Shown one piece after another: positions 29,685 through 54,126 of a DNA stretch of 64,000 nt (position 1 is the stretch's first letter; each line of letters begins with the position of its first letter). The translations under genes were made by a program, and so were the position numbers. Origin of the DNA: Fusibacillus kribbianus (lineage in GTDB: Bacteria > Bacillota > Clostridia > Lachnospirales > Lachnospiraceae); contig NZ_JASGBQ010000001.1 in assembly GCF_030053595.1 (NCBI RefSeq), positions 62,001 through 126,000 of the forward strand, written 5' to 3'. A model generated the notes under the pieces. The model saw only the letters and a program-made list of their open reading frames with translations. It was not told the DNA's origin and searched no databases.

Positions 29685-30980
29685 TTATACTTTTTCAGGC
29701 TTCTGCTTTTTCAGCAGAATGAATATCACTACTGTCACTCCCATCAGTACCGGATAAAAGGTATAGGGAATGATCTGCAGAGGGGAAAGGCCCGTCTGCC
29801 CCGCTGCCAGAAGAAGCTGGGCTCCATAGGGGATCAGTCCCTGGGTCACCGATGCAAAGATATCGAGAAGGGATGCCGTCCTTCTGGGCGAAATCCCATA
29901 ATCGCTGCTGATCTCCTTTGCGATCGGGCCCGCAATGACAATGGCCACCGTATTGTTTGCCGTAGCCATATCCACCAGCACCGCTAAAAGCGCCACGCCC
30001 AGCTCGCCGCCCTTCCTGCCGCGGATCTTTTTGTGTATCAGATTTAAAATGCAGGTAATACCGCCGTTTTTCTTCACAAGCGATACGATACAGGCCACAA
30101 TGATAGAAATTACCGTGATATCATACATGGAGGTAACGCCCTCGCCCATGACCCGGAAGATATCAGCGACCGCAATGGTCCCGGTTCCAAGACCGGCCAG
30201 GATGGAAAGCACTGTACCGCCGATCAGCACCAGGAATACATTGAGACCGGCCAGGGCACCCACCAGCACCACCAGGTAGGGCAGTACCTGCCAGAGATTA
30301 TAACCACCCTCCAGCGTCACCTGGAAGGAGGTATTCCGGCTGATGAGCACATAGATCACCAGGGAAATGATTGCCGCCGGAAGCACCAGGAAGAAGTTCT
30401 CCTTGAATTTATCCCTCATCTCACAGCCCTGGGTCCGGACCGCCGCAATGGTCGTATCGGAGATCATCGAAAGATTGTCGCCGAACATGGCTCCGCTGAC
30501 CACCGCACCGATGCAGATCGCCATGGAAAAACCGGTCTTTTCACTGATTCCCACGGCAATGGGAGCCAGCGCTCCTATGGTTCCCATGCTGGTTCCCATG
30601 GAGATCGACATGAAACAGCCGATCAGCATCAACCCTGCCACTGCAATCCCGGGCGGCAGAATGGAAAGGCCCAGGGCCACTGTGCTGTCGGCACCGCCCG
30701 CCGCCTTCACACTTCCGGAGAAGGCTCCTGCTGCCAGGAAAATAAGGCACATGGTAATAATATTCTCATCACCCACGCCCTCGGCAATGACTTTAAGCTT
30801 CTCCCCAAAGGACAACCTTCTGTTCTGAAAAAAAGCCACCATCAGTGCGATCAGAAAGGCCACAATGGCCGGCATGGCATAAAAATCCCCGGAAACCAGA
30901 CCGACCCCCAGAAATAAAACCAAAAATACTCCGATGGGAAGCAATCCCCACACGTTCCCCTTTTCTCTCTTCTGTTCCAT
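29685..30980 (-). CDS. NhaC-family Na+/H+ antiporter
   Basis: 431 residues with about 11 membrane helices. NhaC-superfamily hallmarks: FLAAGAFSGSVKAAGG, GCFMSISMGTSMGTIGALAPIAVGI, SGAMFGDNLSMISDTTIAA and LVDMATANNTVAIVIAGP. These proteins exchange Na+ for H+ or for amino acids or organic acids. The start at ATG 30980 has AGGGGG upstream; 18 further in-frame codons overlap the terminator of the next gene. It is monocistronic between terminators. Substrate is uncertain; the paralogue at 52597 is under a lysine riboswitch, this one is not. Confidence 0.9.
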   Translation of the reverse strand: MEQKREKGNVWGLLPIGVFLVLFLGVGLVSGDFYAMPAIVAFLIALMVAFFQNRRLSFGEKLKVIAEGVGDENIITMCLIFLAAGAFSGSVKAAGGADSTVALGLSILPPGIAVAGLMLIGCFMSISMGTSMGTIGALAPIAVGISEKTGFSMAICIGAVVSGAMFGDNLSMISDTTIAAVRTQGCEMRDKFKENFFLVLPAAIISLVIYVLISRNTSFQVTLEGGYNLWQVLPYLVVLVGALAGLNVFLVLIGGTVLSILAGLGTGTIAVADIFRVMGEGVTSMYDITVISIIVACIVSLVKKNGGITCILNLIHKKIRGRKGGELGVALLAVLVDMATANNTVAIVIAGPIAKEISSDYGISPRRTASLLDIFASVTQGLIPYGAQLLLAAGQTGLSPLQIIPYTFYPVLMGVTVVIFILLKKQKPEKV

Positions 30981-47367: not shown

Positions 47368-48498
47368 ATGGCTGAGCTTAACCCCAAAATGAGACTGGGC
47401 TTCGGTGCAATGCGGCTTCCGCTTCTGAACCCCGACGATCCGTCTTCCATCGACGTTGAAACCTTTTCCCGGATGATCGATTCCTATCTGGAACAGGGCT
47501 TCAATTATATTGACACCGCGTACCCCTATCACAAGGAGCACTCAGAGGAGGCCGTCTGTGAGGCACTGGTGAAACGGTATCCCAGAGATTCCTATCTGCT
47601 GGCAGACAAGATGCCCACCTTCCTGGTGAAGGGGCCCGAGGACTACGAGCGCTTCTTTGCCACACAGCTTGAGCGCTGCCAGGTGGAGTACTTTGATTAT
47701 TATCTGTTACATAATATGGGAAAGGACCGTTTTGAAGAGACCACCCGGTACGGCGGCTTTGAGTTTATGAAAAAGCTGAAGGCCGAGGGTAAGGCACGCC
47801 ACATCGGCTTCTCCTTCCACGATAAGCCGGAGGTTCTGGATGCGATCCTCACCGCCCATCCGGAAATGGAATTTGTCCAGATCCAGCTCAATTACATCGA
47901 CTGGGAGAGCAACATCATCCAGTCCAAAAACTGTCTGGAGGTCGCCAGAAAGCACGGCAAGCCGGTGATCGTCATGGAACCCATCAAGGGCGGCGGACTT
48001 GTAAACCTGCCGGAGGAGGCCGCGAAGCTTCTGAAGGATCACGATCCCGAGGCATCCATTGCTTCCTGGGCCATCCGTTTTGCCGCCTCCCAGGAGGGAG
48101 TCATGATGGTACTTTCCGGTATGTCCGCTCCCGACCAGCTTGCGGACAATACTTCTTATATGAAGGAGTTCCGTCCCCTTTCCGCAGAAGAGCTTGCCGT
48201 TCTCGACAAGGTGGTGGAGATTCTCCGTCAGTCCTCCGCCATTCCCTGCACCAGCTGCAAATACTGCGTGGATGAATGTCCCATGAACATCAATATTCCC
48301 GGCTACTTCTCCGTTTACAACCTGATGAAGCAGTACGGAACCAACAACTTCCCGCAGATGCATTACAACCGCCAGGCACAGGGCCACGGAGCCGCATCCG
48401 ACTGTATCGAATGCCACAGCTGCGAGGGTCATTGTCCCCAGCATATCAAGATCACGGAGCATTTGAAGGAAATTGCTTCTATTTTCGAGAAAAAATAA
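47368..48498 (+). CDS. Aldo/keto reductase with C-terminal [4Fe-4S] domain
   Basis: 376 residues. TIM-barrel AKR domain to about 285: LGFGAMRLP, NYIDTAYPYH (catalytic Asp/Tyr), LADKMPT (Lys), YYLLHNMG (His), IQLNYIDWE, SGMSAPDQL. A ferredoxin-like tail follows with CTSCKYCVDECP (about 295) and CIECHSCEGHCP (about 350), suited to two [4Fe-4S] clusters. This type is common in anaerobes and is annotated as Fe-S oxidoreductase/AKR; electron donor and substrate are not known. Start ATG with AAAGGAGG upstream; monocistronic. Confidence 0.93.
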   Translation: MAELNPKMRLGFGAMRLPLLNPDDPSSIDVETFSRMIDSYLEQGFNYIDTAYPYHKEHSEEAVCEALVKRYPRDSYLLADKMPTFLVKGPEDYERFFATQLERCQVEYFDYYLLHNMGKDRFEETTRYGGFEFMKKLKAEGKARHIGFSFHDKPEVLDAILTAHPEMEFVQIQLNYIDWESNIIQSKNCLEVARKHGKPVIVMEPIKGGGLVNLPEEAAKLLKDHDPEASIASWAIRFAASQEGVMMVLSGMSAPDQLADNTSYMKEFRPLSAEELAVLDKVVEILRQSSAIPCTSCKYCVDECPMNINIPGYFSVYNLMKQYGTNNFPQMHYNRQAQGHGAASDCIECHSCEGHCPQHIKITEHLKEIASIFEKK

Positions 48499-48549: not shown

Positions 48550-48578
48550 TTGACTTTAACACTTTGATTCGCTATAAT
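48550..48578 (+). promoter_or_regulatory. Promoter of the lysine-riboswitch operon
   Basis: TTGACT at 48550-48555, 17 bp, TATAAT at 48573-48578; the start point near 48585 is right before the aptamer. Confidence 0.85.
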
Positions 48579-48589
48579 GTTTCCCATGG

Positions 48590-48744
48590 TATACATGGGG
48601 GCGCGGAGCTCATCAGTACTGCAGGCGGGAGCCTGCCGGGAAAGGGAAATCCGCCGAAAGCGTTACATTTTCGCTTGGGCTTGCATCGAACAGGTGCAAG
48701 ACTGTTTTTGAAGCCTGCCAAGCTTCAAAAGAGCACCATATATC
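48590..48744 (+). ncRNA. Lysine riboswitch (L box) aptamer
   Basis: The five-helix L-box layout is readable. P1 pairs 48590-48598 with 48736-48744. Conserved core pieces appear in order: GGCGCGGAGC, AGTA (48615-48618), GGGAAAGGG (48638-48646), CCGCCGAAAGC (48651-48661), GCTTGGGC, the P4 hairpin TTGCATCGAACAGGTGCAAG (48681-48700), GACTGTTTTTGAAGC and a P5 stem TTTTGAAGC / GCTTCAAAA, then GAGCACC closing the junction. The order and wording match the Bacillus lysC leader. In this class lysine binding stabilises P1 and promotes the downstream terminator, so the operon should be off when lysine is plentiful. Confidence 0.92.
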
Positions 48745-48798
48745 GGAGGCAGGAACTCTTCCTATTTTCGGAATATGACAGTAAATGATGCAAAGGAG

Positions 48799-48837
48799 CA
48801 GCCATGTGCACACTGTACGCGCATGGCTGTTTTTTTG
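48799..48837 (+). terminator. Riboswitch expression-platform terminator
   Basis: CAGCCATGTGC / GCGCATGGCTG with an 8-nt loop followed by TTTTTTT, 55 nt after P1 and 46 nt before the first start codon. It is the regulated terminator of the lysine riboswitch. The competing antiterminator pairing was not resolved by eye. Confidence 0.9.
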
Positions 48838-48882
48838 CCGGCAAAACTGCTTCCATGTACAAAACAAAGGAGAGGAACTACT

Positions 48883-50937
48883 GTGAAAAAAATCAGAATC
48901 GGCGTCGATGTGGGCGGAACCAACACCGACATCTGCGCAATCGATGAGGCGACCGGCGAGCTGATGGTCTACAAGCTCCCGTCCTCCTTAAAGGACCAGT
49001 CCCAGGCAGTTGTGGGCGGTGTCCGGAAGATCGTTGAGAAATACGGCCTCAGCTATGAGGATGTGGACCGTTTCATCCACGGCACCACCGTGGCAACCAA
49101 TGCAATTCTCGAGACAAGAGGGGCACGCACCGCTCTGATCACCACCAAGGGTTTCCGGGATCTTCTGGAGATCGGACGGCAGAAGCGTCCCGATCTCTAT
49201 GATCTGCAGATGGACAAGGCTCCTGTCCTGGTCCCCAGAAACCTGCGGTTCGAGCTTTCCGAGCGAATGAATTACAAGGGCGAGATCCTGGATGCGCTCA
49301 GGGATGAGGAGATCCTCGAGCTCATTGAAAAATTAAAGGAGAGCAAGGCCGAGGCTGTGGCCGTTCTCTTTTTGAACGCCTACCTGAATCCGGAAAATGA
49401 AGCCAGAGTCCGTGCCCTCATAGAAGAGCATCTGCCCGGCATCTACATCTCCACCTCCAGTGAGATCTCCAACCAGTTCCGCGAATTTGAGCGGCTCTGC
49501 GGTACGGTACTCAACTCCTTCGTCGGCCCTGAGGTGAAGAAATATCTGGACAATCTGCAGAAAACCCTGGAACAGATCGGCATCCGGAAGGTTTATATCA
49601 ACCATTCCAACGGCGGCCTCATGTCCATCCGGGAGGCGGCAGCCTACCCCATCAAGACAGGCCTTTCCGGCCCGGCTGCCGGTGTGATCGGTGTCCAGTA
49701 TCTGATGAACCTGATCAACGTGAAAAATGTCATTACCATCGATGTGGGCGGCACCAGCACCGACATCAGCATGATTGTGGACGGCAATATTGAGAGCTCC
49801 AAGGACAAAAATATCAGCGGTTATCCCGTGCGGATCCCCTCCATTGATATTTCCACCATCGGTGCCGGCGGCGGCAGCATTGCCTGGGTGGATTCCGGCG
49901 GGATCCTGAAGGTAGGTCCCCAGAGTGCCGGAGCAGAGCCCGGTCCTGCCTGCTACGCCCGCGGCGGCACAGAGGCTGCCATCACCGATGCCCGCGTCGT
50001 GCTGGGACATCTGAACAACAAGGAACTTTTAAACGGCCAGCTTCCCATTGACGCAACCCTTTCCTTCCGGGCGGTGGAGAAGCTTTCCGAAAAGATCGGC
50101 ATGAATGTGGAGGAAACTGCCCGCGGTATCATTACCGTCGGAAATTCCAACATCGTCAAGGAGATCAAAAATGTTACCGTAGAGAAGGGCTACAATCCCA
50201 CCGATTTTGCCCTGGTGGCCTTCGGCGGCGCCGGTCCCCTCCATGCGGCGGAGCTCATCGAGGAGCTCAACATGTCCACAGCCATCATTCCCAAGACCCC
50301 CGGTCTTCTGGCTGCCTATGGCCTGCTTACCGAGGATATGCGGCGGGATTTTGTTCAGACCAACGTGCTGGATCTGAACCACATTGAATTTTCCGTCATT
50401 ACCGATATGTATGACAGGCTGAAACGGGATGCTGCCGTCTGGTTTGACAAGGAGCAGATCCTCCCCGAAAACCGTCAGCTGGAATACTATCTGGATATGC
50501 GCTATAAGGGACAGAATTATGAGATCGCCGTCTCCTTCGACAATTCCATTGATTCCATGGAGAAGCTGACTGAGCGGTTTACGGAGACCTACCTGCGTCT
50601 CTACTCCTACTCCTCCAGCGACGAGATCCAGATCGTCAACTTCGGACTCTCTGCCATCGGCCATATCAGCAAGCCCCAGATCGAGCGGGAGGATTTCGTC
50701 GGCGAGGATGCTTCCGGCGCTGTCATGGGCAGCCGCATGGTGCTCATGGAGGACGGTACCCGTGAGAAATATCTCCTCTACGACAGGGAAAAGCTTCACT
50801 GCGGCAACATCATTGCCGGACCGGCCATCGTGGAACAGATGGATTCCACCACCATCATCCTGAAAAACCAGAAGGCTGTGGTGGACGAATACTTTAACAT
50901 GATCATTACAAGAACAGGAGGCGCTTTCGGTGAGTAA
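48883..50937 (+). CDS. Hydantoinase/oxoprolinase subunit A (HyuA-like, ATP-dependent)
   Basis: 684 residues. ATP-binding actin-like fold: VDVGGTNTDICAID (phosphate 1), HGTTVATNAILETRGARTAL, KTGLSGPAAGVIGVQYL, TIDVGGTSTDISMI (phosphate 2) and GAGGGSIAWVDSGGILKVGP. The later part (AFGGAGPLHAAELIEELN) and the C-terminal domain match HyuA/OplA. With HyuB the family hydrolyses hydantoins, 5-oxoproline or lactams using ATP. Start is GTG 48883 with AGGAGAGG upstream; the frame opens at 48775 but that would start before the riboswitch terminator. It overlaps hyuB-like by 8 bases. Confidence 0.93.
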   Translation: MKKIRIGVDVGGTNTDICAIDEATGELMVYKLPSSLKDQSQAVVGGVRKIVEKYGLSYEDVDRFIHGTTVATNAILETRGARTALITTKGFRDLLEIGRQKRPDLYDLQMDKAPVLVPRNLRFELSERMNYKGEILDALRDEEILELIEKLKESKAEAVAVLFLNAYLNPENEARVRALIEEHLPGIYISTSSEISNQFREFERLCGTVLNSFVGPEVKKYLDNLQKTLEQIGIRKVYINHSNGGLMSIREAAAYPIKTGLSGPAAGVIGVQYLMNLINVKNVITIDVGGTSTDISMIVDGNIESSKDKNISGYPVRIPSIDISTIGAGGGSIAWVDSGGILKVGPQSAGAEPGPACYARGGTEAAITDARVVLGHLNNKELLNGQLPIDATLSFRAVEKLSEKIGMNVEETARGIITVGNSNIVKEIKNVTVEKGYNPTDFALVAFGGAGPLHAAELIEELNMSTAIIPKTPGLLAAYGLLTEDMRRDFVQTNVLDLNHIEFSVITDMYDRLKRDAAVWFDKEQILPENRQLEYYLDMRYKGQNYEIAVSFDNSIDSMEKLTERFTETYLRLYSYSSSDEIQIVNFGLSAIGHISKPQIEREDFVGEDASGAVMGSRMVLMEDGTREKYLLYDREKLHCGNIIAGPAIVEQMDSTTIILKNQKAVVDEYFNMIITRTGGAFGE

Positions 50938-52600
50938 CATCAATTCCATTACCCTGGAGGTCATCTCAAACGGCCTTCTCTCCATTGCGGAGCAGATGGG
51001 CGTCATCCTGACCAAAACGGCATACAGTACGAATATCAAGGAGAGAAAGGACCTGTCGGTGGCCATTTTCGACGCTGACGGAAAGGTTCTCTCTCTGGCT
51101 CAGCACATTCCCATCCATTTCAGCTCCCTCTTCGGAGCCGTGGAGGAGGCCTTAAAGCGCTGGGACAAATCGGAGATCTACGACGGCGACGTGTTCATCG
51201 CCAACGATCCCTACACCGGCGGTGGCTCTCATCTGCCGGACATCGCTCTGGTGAAGCCGGTCTTTTATGAGGGAAAGCTCATCGCCTTCGTGGTCAACAA
51301 CGGGCACCACGCGGACCGATCCAGACGAGGCCCCACCATCTACGACGAAGGTCTTCGGATCCCGGTGGTGAAGCTTTATGAAAAAGGAAAGCTCAACAAG
51401 GACATTTACGATCTGATCCTTTTAAACTTCCAGTTAAAGGAAGAGCGCCGCGGTGACATTCAGGCGCAGCTGATCACCAACCAGTTTGGTGCGGAAAAGG
51501 TCATTGAGCTGTGCAAAAAGATCGGACTGGAAACGTATTTTGACTTCTGCCGGGAATGGCTCAAATACGGAGAAAAGAAGGCCCGGGCAGCCATCAAAAG
51601 CCTGCCCGACGGCGAATATGAATTTGAAGATATCCTGGACGACGACGGACAGGGCAACGAAAACCTGCAGATCCGGGTGAAGCTGTGCATCAACGATGAC
51701 CATATCCTGTTTGACTTCTCCGGAAGCCATCCCCAGGTCACCGGCCCTTATAACTGCGTGCGGAGCGCCCTTCTGGCCACCGTCTACTATTCGGTCAAAT
51801 GCCTGCTGGACAAGACCATTCCGGCCAACTCCGGTTTCTTTGACAGCATTGAGGTGAAGGCTGAGCCCGGCACCATCGTCTGTGCCTCGGAGCCTGCTCC
51901 CACCTTTGACCGGGAAACCACCACCCAGCGGTTAGCCGACGTGATCTTCGGCGCCTTCGCCAAAATCGACCCGAAGAATGTCACTGCCGCAGGCTGCGGC
52001 GCCGTGACCTTTTTCAGCATCGCCGGACAGGACGCCCGTTCTGGAAAGCCCTATGTCTATGTGGAGACCATCGGCGGCGGCAACGGCGCCCGGTTCAACA
52101 AGGACGGTCTGGATGCGGTTCAGGTACATATGACCAATTCCTCCAACCTGCCCATCGAATCTCTGGAGATGGAGTATCCGCTCATGGTTGAGGAATACGC
52201 TCTGGAGGAGGATTCCGGTGGTCCCGGAAAGTACAGGGGCGGCCTTGCCATCCGAAGAGGCATCAAGATTCTGGAGGACAGCAAAAACACGGTTCTGGCG
52301 GCCGCTTCCACCGAGAGAAGCCGTACAAAGCCCTGGGGCCTTATGGGCGGCCTAGGCGGCGCCACCTCATATCTGGATATCCGCCGGGAAGGCGAAAAGA
52401 TCAACGACCAGAATAAGGTCCGAAACGTCCCTCTGGAAACCGGCGACACCGTCACTTTGGTATCTGCAGGAGGCGGCGGCTACGGAGCCCCTTCCGAGCG
52501 CAGCATAGAAAGCGTAAAAAGGGATTATGAAGAAGGGAAAATCAGTCTGGATACGATCAAAGCATGTTATCCGGCTGCAATAAAGGAGGAAAATCAATGA
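50930..52600 (+). CDS. Hydantoinase/oxoprolinase subunit B (HyuB-like)
   Basis: 556 residues, the usual HyuB length. N-terminal EVISNGLLSIAEQMGVILTK; metal/substrate core ANDPYTGGGSHLPDIALVKP, VVNNGHHADRSRRGP; DFSGSHPQVTGPYN; QRLADVIFGAFAKIDPKNV; GGNGARFNKDG; DSGGPGKYRGGL; C-terminal TVTLVSAGGGGYGAPSERS. Subunit B carries the hydrolytic site and works in complex with subunit A. GTG 50930 has AGGAGG eight bases before it, inside the end of the A gene. Ring substrate cannot be read from the sequence. Confidence 0.93.
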   Translation: MSNINSITLEVISNGLLSIAEQMGVILTKTAYSTNIKERKDLSVAIFDADGKVLSLAQHIPIHFSSLFGAVEEALKRWDKSEIYDGDVFIANDPYTGGGSHLPDIALVKPVFYEGKLIAFVVNNGHHADRSRRGPTIYDEGLRIPVVKLYEKGKLNKDIYDLILLNFQLKEERRGDIQAQLITNQFGAEKVIELCKKIGLETYFDFCREWLKYGEKKARAAIKSLPDGEYEFEDILDDDGQGNENLQIRVKLCINDDHILFDFSGSHPQVTGPYNCVRSALLATVYYSVKCLLDKTIPANSGFFDSIEVKAEPGTIVCASEPAPTFDRETTTQRLADVIFGAFAKIDPKNVTAAGCGAVTFFSIAGQDARSGKPYVYVETIGGGNGARFNKDGLDAVQVHMTNSSNLPIESLEMEYPLMVEEYALEEDSGGPGKYRGGLAIRRGIKILEDSKNTVLAAASTERSRTKPWGLMGGLGGATSYLDIRREGEKINDQNKVRNVPLETGDTVTLVSAGGGGYGAPSERSIESVKRDYEEGKISLDTIKACYPAAIKEENQ

Positions 52601-54069
52601 GTAATGAAAAAGAGGCAAAGCGCGTCAGCTTTCCGGTGGCCATTCTCACCCTGGTGATCATGGTTGCCATCATGGCCTTCGGATTCCTGATCTCCAAGTG
52701 GATCTGGGGAAGCTCCCTTGCCACTGTAACTGTATTTATCTTGGTTCTTCTGGCCATGGTGATCGTTGCCCTCTGTGCCGGTTTTAAAATGAACGACATC
52801 CAGACAGCACTGGTGGACGGCTGTAAAAAAGCCATCCTTGTTGTCCTGATCCTGCTGACCGTCGGCATGGTGGTCGGAACCTGGATCGTTTCCGGCGTCA
52901 TTCCTTCCATCATCTACTACGGACTGAAGATCCTTCATCCGTCCGTATTCCTGCTGGTAGGCTTTTTGATCTGCTGCATCGTATCCTTTTTCACCGGCAG
53001 CTGCTACACTGCTGTGGCAACCCTCGGTGTTGCATTCATGGGCATCGGCTCCGGCCTCGGCGTAGGCGCCGGCCTGACTGCAGGTATGGTTATCTCCGGT
53101 TCCATCTTCGGTGATAAGATGTCTCCGTTCTCCGATACCACCAACCTGGCTCCTGCCGTTGCAGGCACCGACATTTTCCTGCATATCAAATCCATGCTGT
53201 ATACGACCGTTCCCGCCACGGTGATCGCGGCTGTTCTGTACTTCATCCTTGGTCTGCGGTACAGCTCTTCCAGCATCGATGTGGCTAACGTGACAGCCAT
53301 CACCGAAGGGATTACCGGAGCCTTCAATGTGAATCCGTTCCTGATCCTGGTTCCTGTGCTGACGATCGTTCTTGTTATCAAAAAGGTTCCCGCCTTCCTG
53401 GCACTGCTGGCAGGCGCCCTCATGGGACTTGTGATCGCCTTCATCGCTCAGCCTCAGTTCGCCCCCGGCGCCATCTTAAATTCCATGGCTTCCGGCTTCA
53501 GCGGTGAGTTTGAGAACGCTATGGTGGCAAGACTCTTTAACCGCGGCGGTGTTTCCAGCATGATGACCACCGTTTCCCTGACGCTTCTCTGCCTGGCCTT
53601 CGGTGAACTGATCACCAGAATGGGTGTGCTTTCCGCCATCCTGGACAAGCTTGGTTCTCTGGTAAAGAAACCCGGTTCTCTCGTGATCACCACTCTGGTT
53701 TCCTGCCTGATGACCGTGATCCTGACTGCCAGCCAGTACGTGGCGATCCTGCTTCCCGGCGAGATCTTCCAGGATTCCTACAAGAAAGCAGACGTTGCCC
53801 CTTATGTTCTCTCCAGAACCCTGGAGGACGGCGGTACCATCTTCTCCTATCTGGTACCCTGGTCCGCAGCAGCCCTCTATGTATCTTCCACGTTAGAGGT
53901 CTCCACCACTGCTTACCTGCCCTACGCCTTCCTGCCGATGCTCTGCCCGATCTTCGCGATCATCTATGCGGCTACCGGATTTGCAGTATTTAAGACCGAC
54001 GGCTCCCCTGTAAAGGGCAAAGGCCTTTGGTTCAATAAGAAGGCCAAGCTGGCTGCACAGAAGAAATAA
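52597..54069 (+). CDS. NhaC-family transporter in the lysine-riboswitch operon
   Basis: 490 residues with about 11-12 membrane helices. NhaC-superfamily marks: FFTGSCYTAVATLGVAFMGI, SGSIFGDKMSPFSDTTNLAP, LTASQYVAILLPGEIF. ATG 52597 overlaps the hyuB-like stop (ATGA) and has AAAGGAGG upstream. NhaC-type proteins under lysine riboswitches have been predicted to be lysine transporters (LysW type), so lysine or a lysine derivative is the best guess. It differs clearly from the NhaC at 29685. A strong terminator follows. Confidence 0.9.
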   Translation: MSNEKEAKRVSFPVAILTLVIMVAIMAFGFLISKWIWGSSLATVTVFILVLLAMVIVALCAGFKMNDIQTALVDGCKKAILVVLILLTVGMVVGTWIVSGVIPSIIYYGLKILHPSVFLLVGFLICCIVSFFTGSCYTAVATLGVAFMGIGSGLGVGAGLTAGMVISGSIFGDKMSPFSDTTNLAPAVAGTDIFLHIKSMLYTTVPATVIAAVLYFILGLRYSSSSIDVANVTAITEGITGAFNVNPFLILVPVLTIVLVIKKVPAFLALLAGALMGLVIAFIAQPQFAPGAILNSMASGFSGEFENAMVARLFNRGGVSSMMTTVSLTLLCLAFGELITRMGVLSAILDKLGSLVKKPGSLVITTLVSCLMTVILTASQYVAILLPGEIFQDSYKKADVAPYVLSRTLEDGGTIFSYLVPWSAAALYVSSTLEVSTTAYLPYAFLPMLCPIFAIIYAATGFAVFKTDGSPVKGKGLWFNKKAKLAAQKK

Positions 54070-54088
54070 GATATCCGTAAAATAATTT

Positions 54089-54126
54089 ATCCTCCGTATG
54101 AGTCAGATCATACGGAGGATTTTTTC
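54089..54126. terminator. Terminator of the riboswitch operon
   Basis: ATCCTCCGTATG / CATACGGAGGAT followed by TTTTTTC on the plus strand; also suited to end holA on the minus strand. Confidence 0.9.

Follow-up and report, generated by a model that had tools for sequence, protein, structure and literature searches.

The described targets of lysine riboswitches comprise biosynthesis genes, the transporters LysP, LysW, YvsH and LysXY, and catabolic genes; the oligoendopeptidase F of Mycoplasma is also under such control (PMC5584792). The most widely distributed transporter of this set is lysW, a member of the NhaC superfamily (PMC5584792). In C. difficile, a lysine riboswitch precedes yfcC and a gene encoding an M20D amidohydrolase (PMC11477304). 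This pair (CD3100-3099) is the nearest precedent for the locus described here, in which a transporter and an amide hydrolase are likewise placed under a lysine riboswitch. The pairing itself is therefore not wholly new, although the C. difficile transporter belongs to another family and the M20D amidohydrolase takes the place of an ATP-dependent HyuAB enzyme. A lysine riboswitch was also observed in a relative (genome G048, locus L059), upstream of a gene for a 484-aa membrane protein that is YfcC-like by eye and thus recalls the C. difficile arrangement.

In the literature examined we found no ATP-dependent cyclic-amide hydrolase controlled by a lysine riboswitch, and the main text of two surveys mentions no hydantoinase. 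The earlier note on this DNA knew of no described system of this kind; for the combination of transporter and amide hydrolase, C. difficile provides a precedent (PMC11477304). Conversion of lysine lactam to lysine by enzymes has been described (PMC6061476), which gives the reaction proposed below a biochemical precedent. The L-alpha-amino-epsilon-caprolactamase of Cryptococcus laurentii, described as a lactam hydrolase (PMC6061476), performs the conversion (lysine lactam to lysine) that HyuAB may also carry out.

The operon and its leader

We analysed a window of 64,000 nt from the genome of Fusibacillus kribbianus. All features given below lie on the forward strand unless stated otherwise. 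The earlier note had described overlapping hyuA, hyuB and nhaC genes with a single end terminator, preceded by an L-box aptamer set between a promoter and a further terminator, and each of these elements was recovered in our analysis. The genes encode (i) the ATP-binding subunit of an enzyme of the hydantoinase/oxoprolinase family (HyuA; 48883-50937; 684 aa; Pfam Hydantoinase_A), (ii) its metal-site subunit (HyuB; 50930-52600; 556 aa; Pfam Hydantoinase_B) and (iii) an NhaC-family transporter (52597-54069; 490 aa; Pfam Na_H_antiporter; TIGR00931). hyuA starts with GTG and is preceded by the ribosome binding site AGGAGAGG (48868-48875). It overlaps hyuB by 8 nt, and hyuB overlaps nhaC by 4 nt. 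The operon ends with a terminator (54089-54126) composed of a hairpin with a 13-bp stem (54089-54120) and a T run.

Transcription is predicted to start from a sigma-70 type promoter (TTGACT-17-TATAAT; 48550-48578) with an 11/12 match to the consensus. This promoter is kept in the orthologous loci despite the divergence of other upstream sequence; the aptamer core and the terminator are conserved as well, within leader sequence that has otherwise diverged. Just upstream of the promoter lies a gene (47368-48498) for an aldo/keto reductase that carries a fused 4Fe-4S ferredoxin-like domain, which also adjoins the locus in some relatives (L004, L005). Since the promoter intervenes, this gene is probably a separate unit.

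An Rfam search of the whole window returned two matches only, one tRNA and the lysine riboswitch RF00168 (48588-48746). The latter spans the full model (1-182) with 72.3 bits (E 6e-17), against a gathering threshold of 30 bits, so that the covariance check bears out the L-box assignment; in six orthologues the scores were 65.8-77.1 bits. The element is a lysine riboswitch aptamer of compact form, and the alignment contains nine pairs with compensatory changes, i.e. changes on both sides.

The 3′ strand of the P1 helix is predicted to pair with the downstream sequence CGGAATAT, forming an anti-P1 hairpin (48736-48777) that is an alternative to P1. In a shuffle test of six leaders, this hairpin was clear in four (only 0.2-2.4% of shuffled sequences were equally good), weak in L005 and absent from L006. 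Folding also placed an intrinsic terminator, presumably the regulated one, upstream of hyuA (about 48797-48836; region energy -22.6 kcal/mol), whose hairpin has a 9-nt loop and is followed by seven T; it is kept in all six species folded. A long-range antiterminator, formed by the 5′ strand of P1 and the 5′ arm of the terminator, was considered and rejected, with shuffle fractions of 0.03-0.33, i.e. about chance in most leaders.

The natural reading of this leader would be a lysine OFF switch, the mode of action of characterised lysine riboswitches (PMC11477304). When lysine is scarce, the anti-P1 hairpin would take the 3′ strand of P1, P1 would stay unformed, and the terminator would be avoided, permitting read-through; with lysine bound, P1 would form and transcription would end before hyuA.

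A compact form of the lysine aptamer

The aptamer of the window has a short P2 arm with a GGGA tetraloop and a short P3, and is devoid of the long L2 and L3 arms. The seven hyuA-linked aptamers measure 142-159 nt, compared with a median of 175 nt in 63 others. Their L3 (P3) arm comprises 12-17 nt (typically 26-29 nt in the others), and the loop of the P2 arm is short in most of the seven. With arms of this length the usual L2-L3 kissing loop cannot form, and, judged by arm length and sequence, it was found in none of the hyuA-linked aptamers. The kissing-loop arms have been reported to be essential for the lysine riboswitch (PMC3764141).

The hyuA-linked aptamers also differ in sequence. Their J1-2 motif is GGGG (7/7), as opposed to AGAGG in 63/63 other lysine aptamers, and all seven end J5-1 with A, a position occupied by G in nearly all other aptamers. 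Taken together, the two changes look like a swapped purine pair. We take the changed J1-2 position to be A10 of the T. maritima riboswitch, and the swapped pair presumably lies just beneath the floor of the pocket, adjoining it and not within it. In the T. maritima riboswitch A10 belongs to the nucleotides that are more than 95% conserved, and the floor of the lysine riboswitch pocket is formed by G11-G163-G141-A162 (PMC3764141). With the exception of AGAGG and the J5-1 base that partners it, the core of the Rfam consensus (GCCGAA, UGGG, GAAAGG and CUGU among others) is kept, and lysine is therefore the likely ligand.

Compact lysine riboswitches with shortened P2 and P3, in which AGAGG is intact, were observed in other Clostridia (L174, 159 nt; L175, 162 nt). 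The genes downstream of them look like lysA from their sequence, so that compactness alone is compatible with lysine sensing.

The encoded enzyme and transporter

The DxGGTxTD ATP motif of HyuA is intact, and HyuB retains the metal ligands D41, H101, D104 and H126 (D-H-D-H site). With both domains, the ATP motif and the metal site present, HyuAB falls within the ATP-dependent hydantoinase/oxoprolinase family; to our knowledge, the substrate is still to be found for most HyuAB enzymes. Among solved structures, both subunits gave their best scores to N-methylhydantoinase (7HK5, 9H03; 498 and 288 bits), followed by caprolactamase. N-methylhydantoinase is a fused single chain, unlike HyuAB, and in the part that corresponds to HyuB the identity is about 33%. 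The caprolactamase CapAB of Pseudomonas jessenii (6YRA) has in common with HyuAB the two-subunit family, the ATP motifs and the D-H-D-H site (about 31% identity to HyuB); in the literature examined, no lysine control of CapAB is described.

An identity as caprolactamase was rejected on sequence grounds. The subunits (536 and 296 bits, vs 1000) score below the NCBIfam equivalog cut-offs for CapA and CapB, and HyuB does not contain the vicinal Cys-Cys of the vicinal-disulfide motif. The metal-adjacent loop, which in CapAB carries Tyr136, has lost about 8 residues in the clade of the window, including the homologues of genomes G345 and G863. Given the missing Cys-Cys and the shortened loop, HyuAB represents, as judged from its sequence, a separate subfamily among the ATP-dependent cyclic-amide hydrolases. 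A role of HyuB Glu329 in recognising a cationic substrate was considered and discarded: the genus and G345 have this residue, but G863 (a 68% orthologue) has Ala instead, and an alignment gap adjoining this residue weakens the idea further.

The earlier note had counted the NhaC-type transporter in favour of lysine control. The family assignment stands (TIGR00931 score 414.5, cut-off 370), and the protein shares with LysW both the NhaC superfamily and control by a lysine riboswitch, but it is not of the LysW type. A blastp comparison with the riboswitch-linked LysW-type NhaC proteins of Clostridia gave no significant match (E 0.03-7.5), and RF00168 was found at none of the 20 nearest NhaC loci. 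By these comparisons the operon NhaC belongs to a subfamily other than LysW. Its nearest relatives several times adjoin M20-type-peptidase-like genes, judging by eye from the beginnings of their sequences. The minus strand (29709-30876) encodes a further NhaC-family member, a distant paralogue that is somewhat nearer to the LysW type and lies away from the sole RF00168 match of the window.

Distribution and interpretation

Our collection holds 11 genomes of the genus (that of the window comprises 2.9 Mb). An orthologue of hyuA is present in seven of them, each time with RF00168 directly upstream, and the four genomes without the orthologue are also devoid of its riboswitch. The other six hyuA orthologues are 87-91% identical to that of the window; in the orthologous loci examined, hyuA is followed by hyuB and nhaC, with the trio left intact. 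Among named records, Candidatus Paralachnospira avium and caecorum are close relatives, as are other Lachnospiraceae MAGs. A second lysine riboswitch of the window's genome precedes dapA-dapB, and in G201 a third was observed before a LysXY-like amino-acid ABC transporter (L144:2336-5129); both fit lysine supply, as expected. The LysA of the host scores 279, just below the TIGR01048 cut-off (297.9), so that lysine prototrophy is only probable.

The link between RF00168 and HyuA genes in other genomes, raised in the earlier note, holds within the genus but at none of the outside loci surveyed. No riboswitch was detected at about 90 loci of HyuA homologues outside the genus (29 loci and a set of about 65 that includes a few distant paralogues or truncated loci); the model used there does detect ordinary lysine riboswitches, and RF00168 was likewise absent where searched. 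The closest outside orthologues of HyuA (70%, a truncated RUG12614 gene; 68%, G863; 64%, G345) are accompanied by divergent regulators, of the LysR type or RpiR plus sigma-54, and carry no riboswitch, which confines the lysine link to one genus. Since the homologous loci elsewhere do not carry the riboswitch, lysine control of hyuAB was either gained in the genus or lost elsewhere. In G863 (L251:902-10299), the genes downstream of the pair encode an OCD/mu-crystallin family protein (NCBIfam 'tyramine oxidase subunit B') and an ABC transporter of the oligopeptide type, and RpiR-like and sigma-54 regulators are encoded divergently; the downstream neighbours hint at amino-acid-derived substrates.

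Beside the established features of the locus (riboswitch, terminator, gene set, conservation and catalytic residues) we place a tentative reading, to which we assign a probability of about 0.48, namely that of a lysine-repressed salvage operon by which a cyclic amide is imported and opened to give lysine or a close relative. This reading is favoured by the perfect match between the presence or absence of riboswitch and hyuA in the 11 genus genomes, by the intact HyuB metal ligands and HyuA ATP motifs, by the M20-type-peptidase-like neighbours of the nearest NhaC relatives, and by the C. difficile precedent (PMC11477304); it is weakened by the confinement of the lysine link to one genus, by an NhaC that is not of the LysW type and by the loss of the kissing-loop arms. 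The NhaC-family carrier would import an amino-acid-like cyclic amide, coupled to Na+ or H+, HyuA would phosphorylate it using ATP, and HyuB, with metal-bound water, would open the ring to yield lysine or a compound one step away. Lysine lactam, a lysine-containing diketopiperazine and lysine hydantoin would be candidate substrates.

The riboswitch might instead serve the transporter, NhaC being a lysine (or pH/sodium) carrier, with HyuAB merely carried along and acting on an unrelated ring substrate such as 5-oxoproline, hydantoin or valerolactam. The wide distribution of lysW, of the NhaC superfamily, among lysine-riboswitch transporters (PMC5584792) and the occurrence of HyuAB orthologues elsewhere without NhaC and without riboswitch lend this alternative some weight. 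We nevertheless consider it rather unlikely, as it is hyuA/hyuB rather than nhaC that adjoins the riboswitch in all species, the three genes are kept together, and the operon NhaC is not LysW-like. Carboxylase-type activity of HyuAB, in place of hydrolysis, is very improbable: acetone and acetophenone carboxylases do belong to the same superfamily, but the two-subunit make-up, and scores to N-methylhydantoinase and caprolactamase far above those to carboxylases, argue against it.

As regards the aptamer, its retention in seven genomes with compensatory changes makes an artefact or chance match hardly conceivable. Its changed J1-2/J5-1 pair and lost arms could, however, mark a change of ligand within the lysine class, from lysine to another compound, perhaps a lysine analogue or the substrate of HyuAB. 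AGAGG is found in 63/63 aptamers elsewhere and 0/7 here, with a matching J5-1 change from G to A, the gene set is unusual, and variants of altered specificity are known in other riboswitch classes (PMC9295807, PMC10853860). Set against this are the otherwise kept core consensus, the changed pair, which presumably adjoins the described pocket floor (PMC3764141) and is not in it, and the compact AGAGG aptamers (L174, L175) that precede lysA-like genes; such a shift of ligand therefore seems improbable. That the hyuAB-linked aptamers form a variant class in which the changed J1-2/J5-1 pair and the lost kissing loop accompany a new ligand, e.g. a cyclic lysine derivative, and control its import and ring opening would likewise be something of a surprise.

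A compact aptamer with neither AGAGG nor kissing loop offers a ready test of what a lysine riboswitch really needs, and the conserved riboswitch provides one clade of HyuAB enzymes with a concrete, testable substrate hypothesis. Our analysis suggests that a group of gut bacteria may take up and open a cyclic source of lysine when lysine is in short supply; if this is true, cyclic lysine compounds would be a nutrient in the animal gut.
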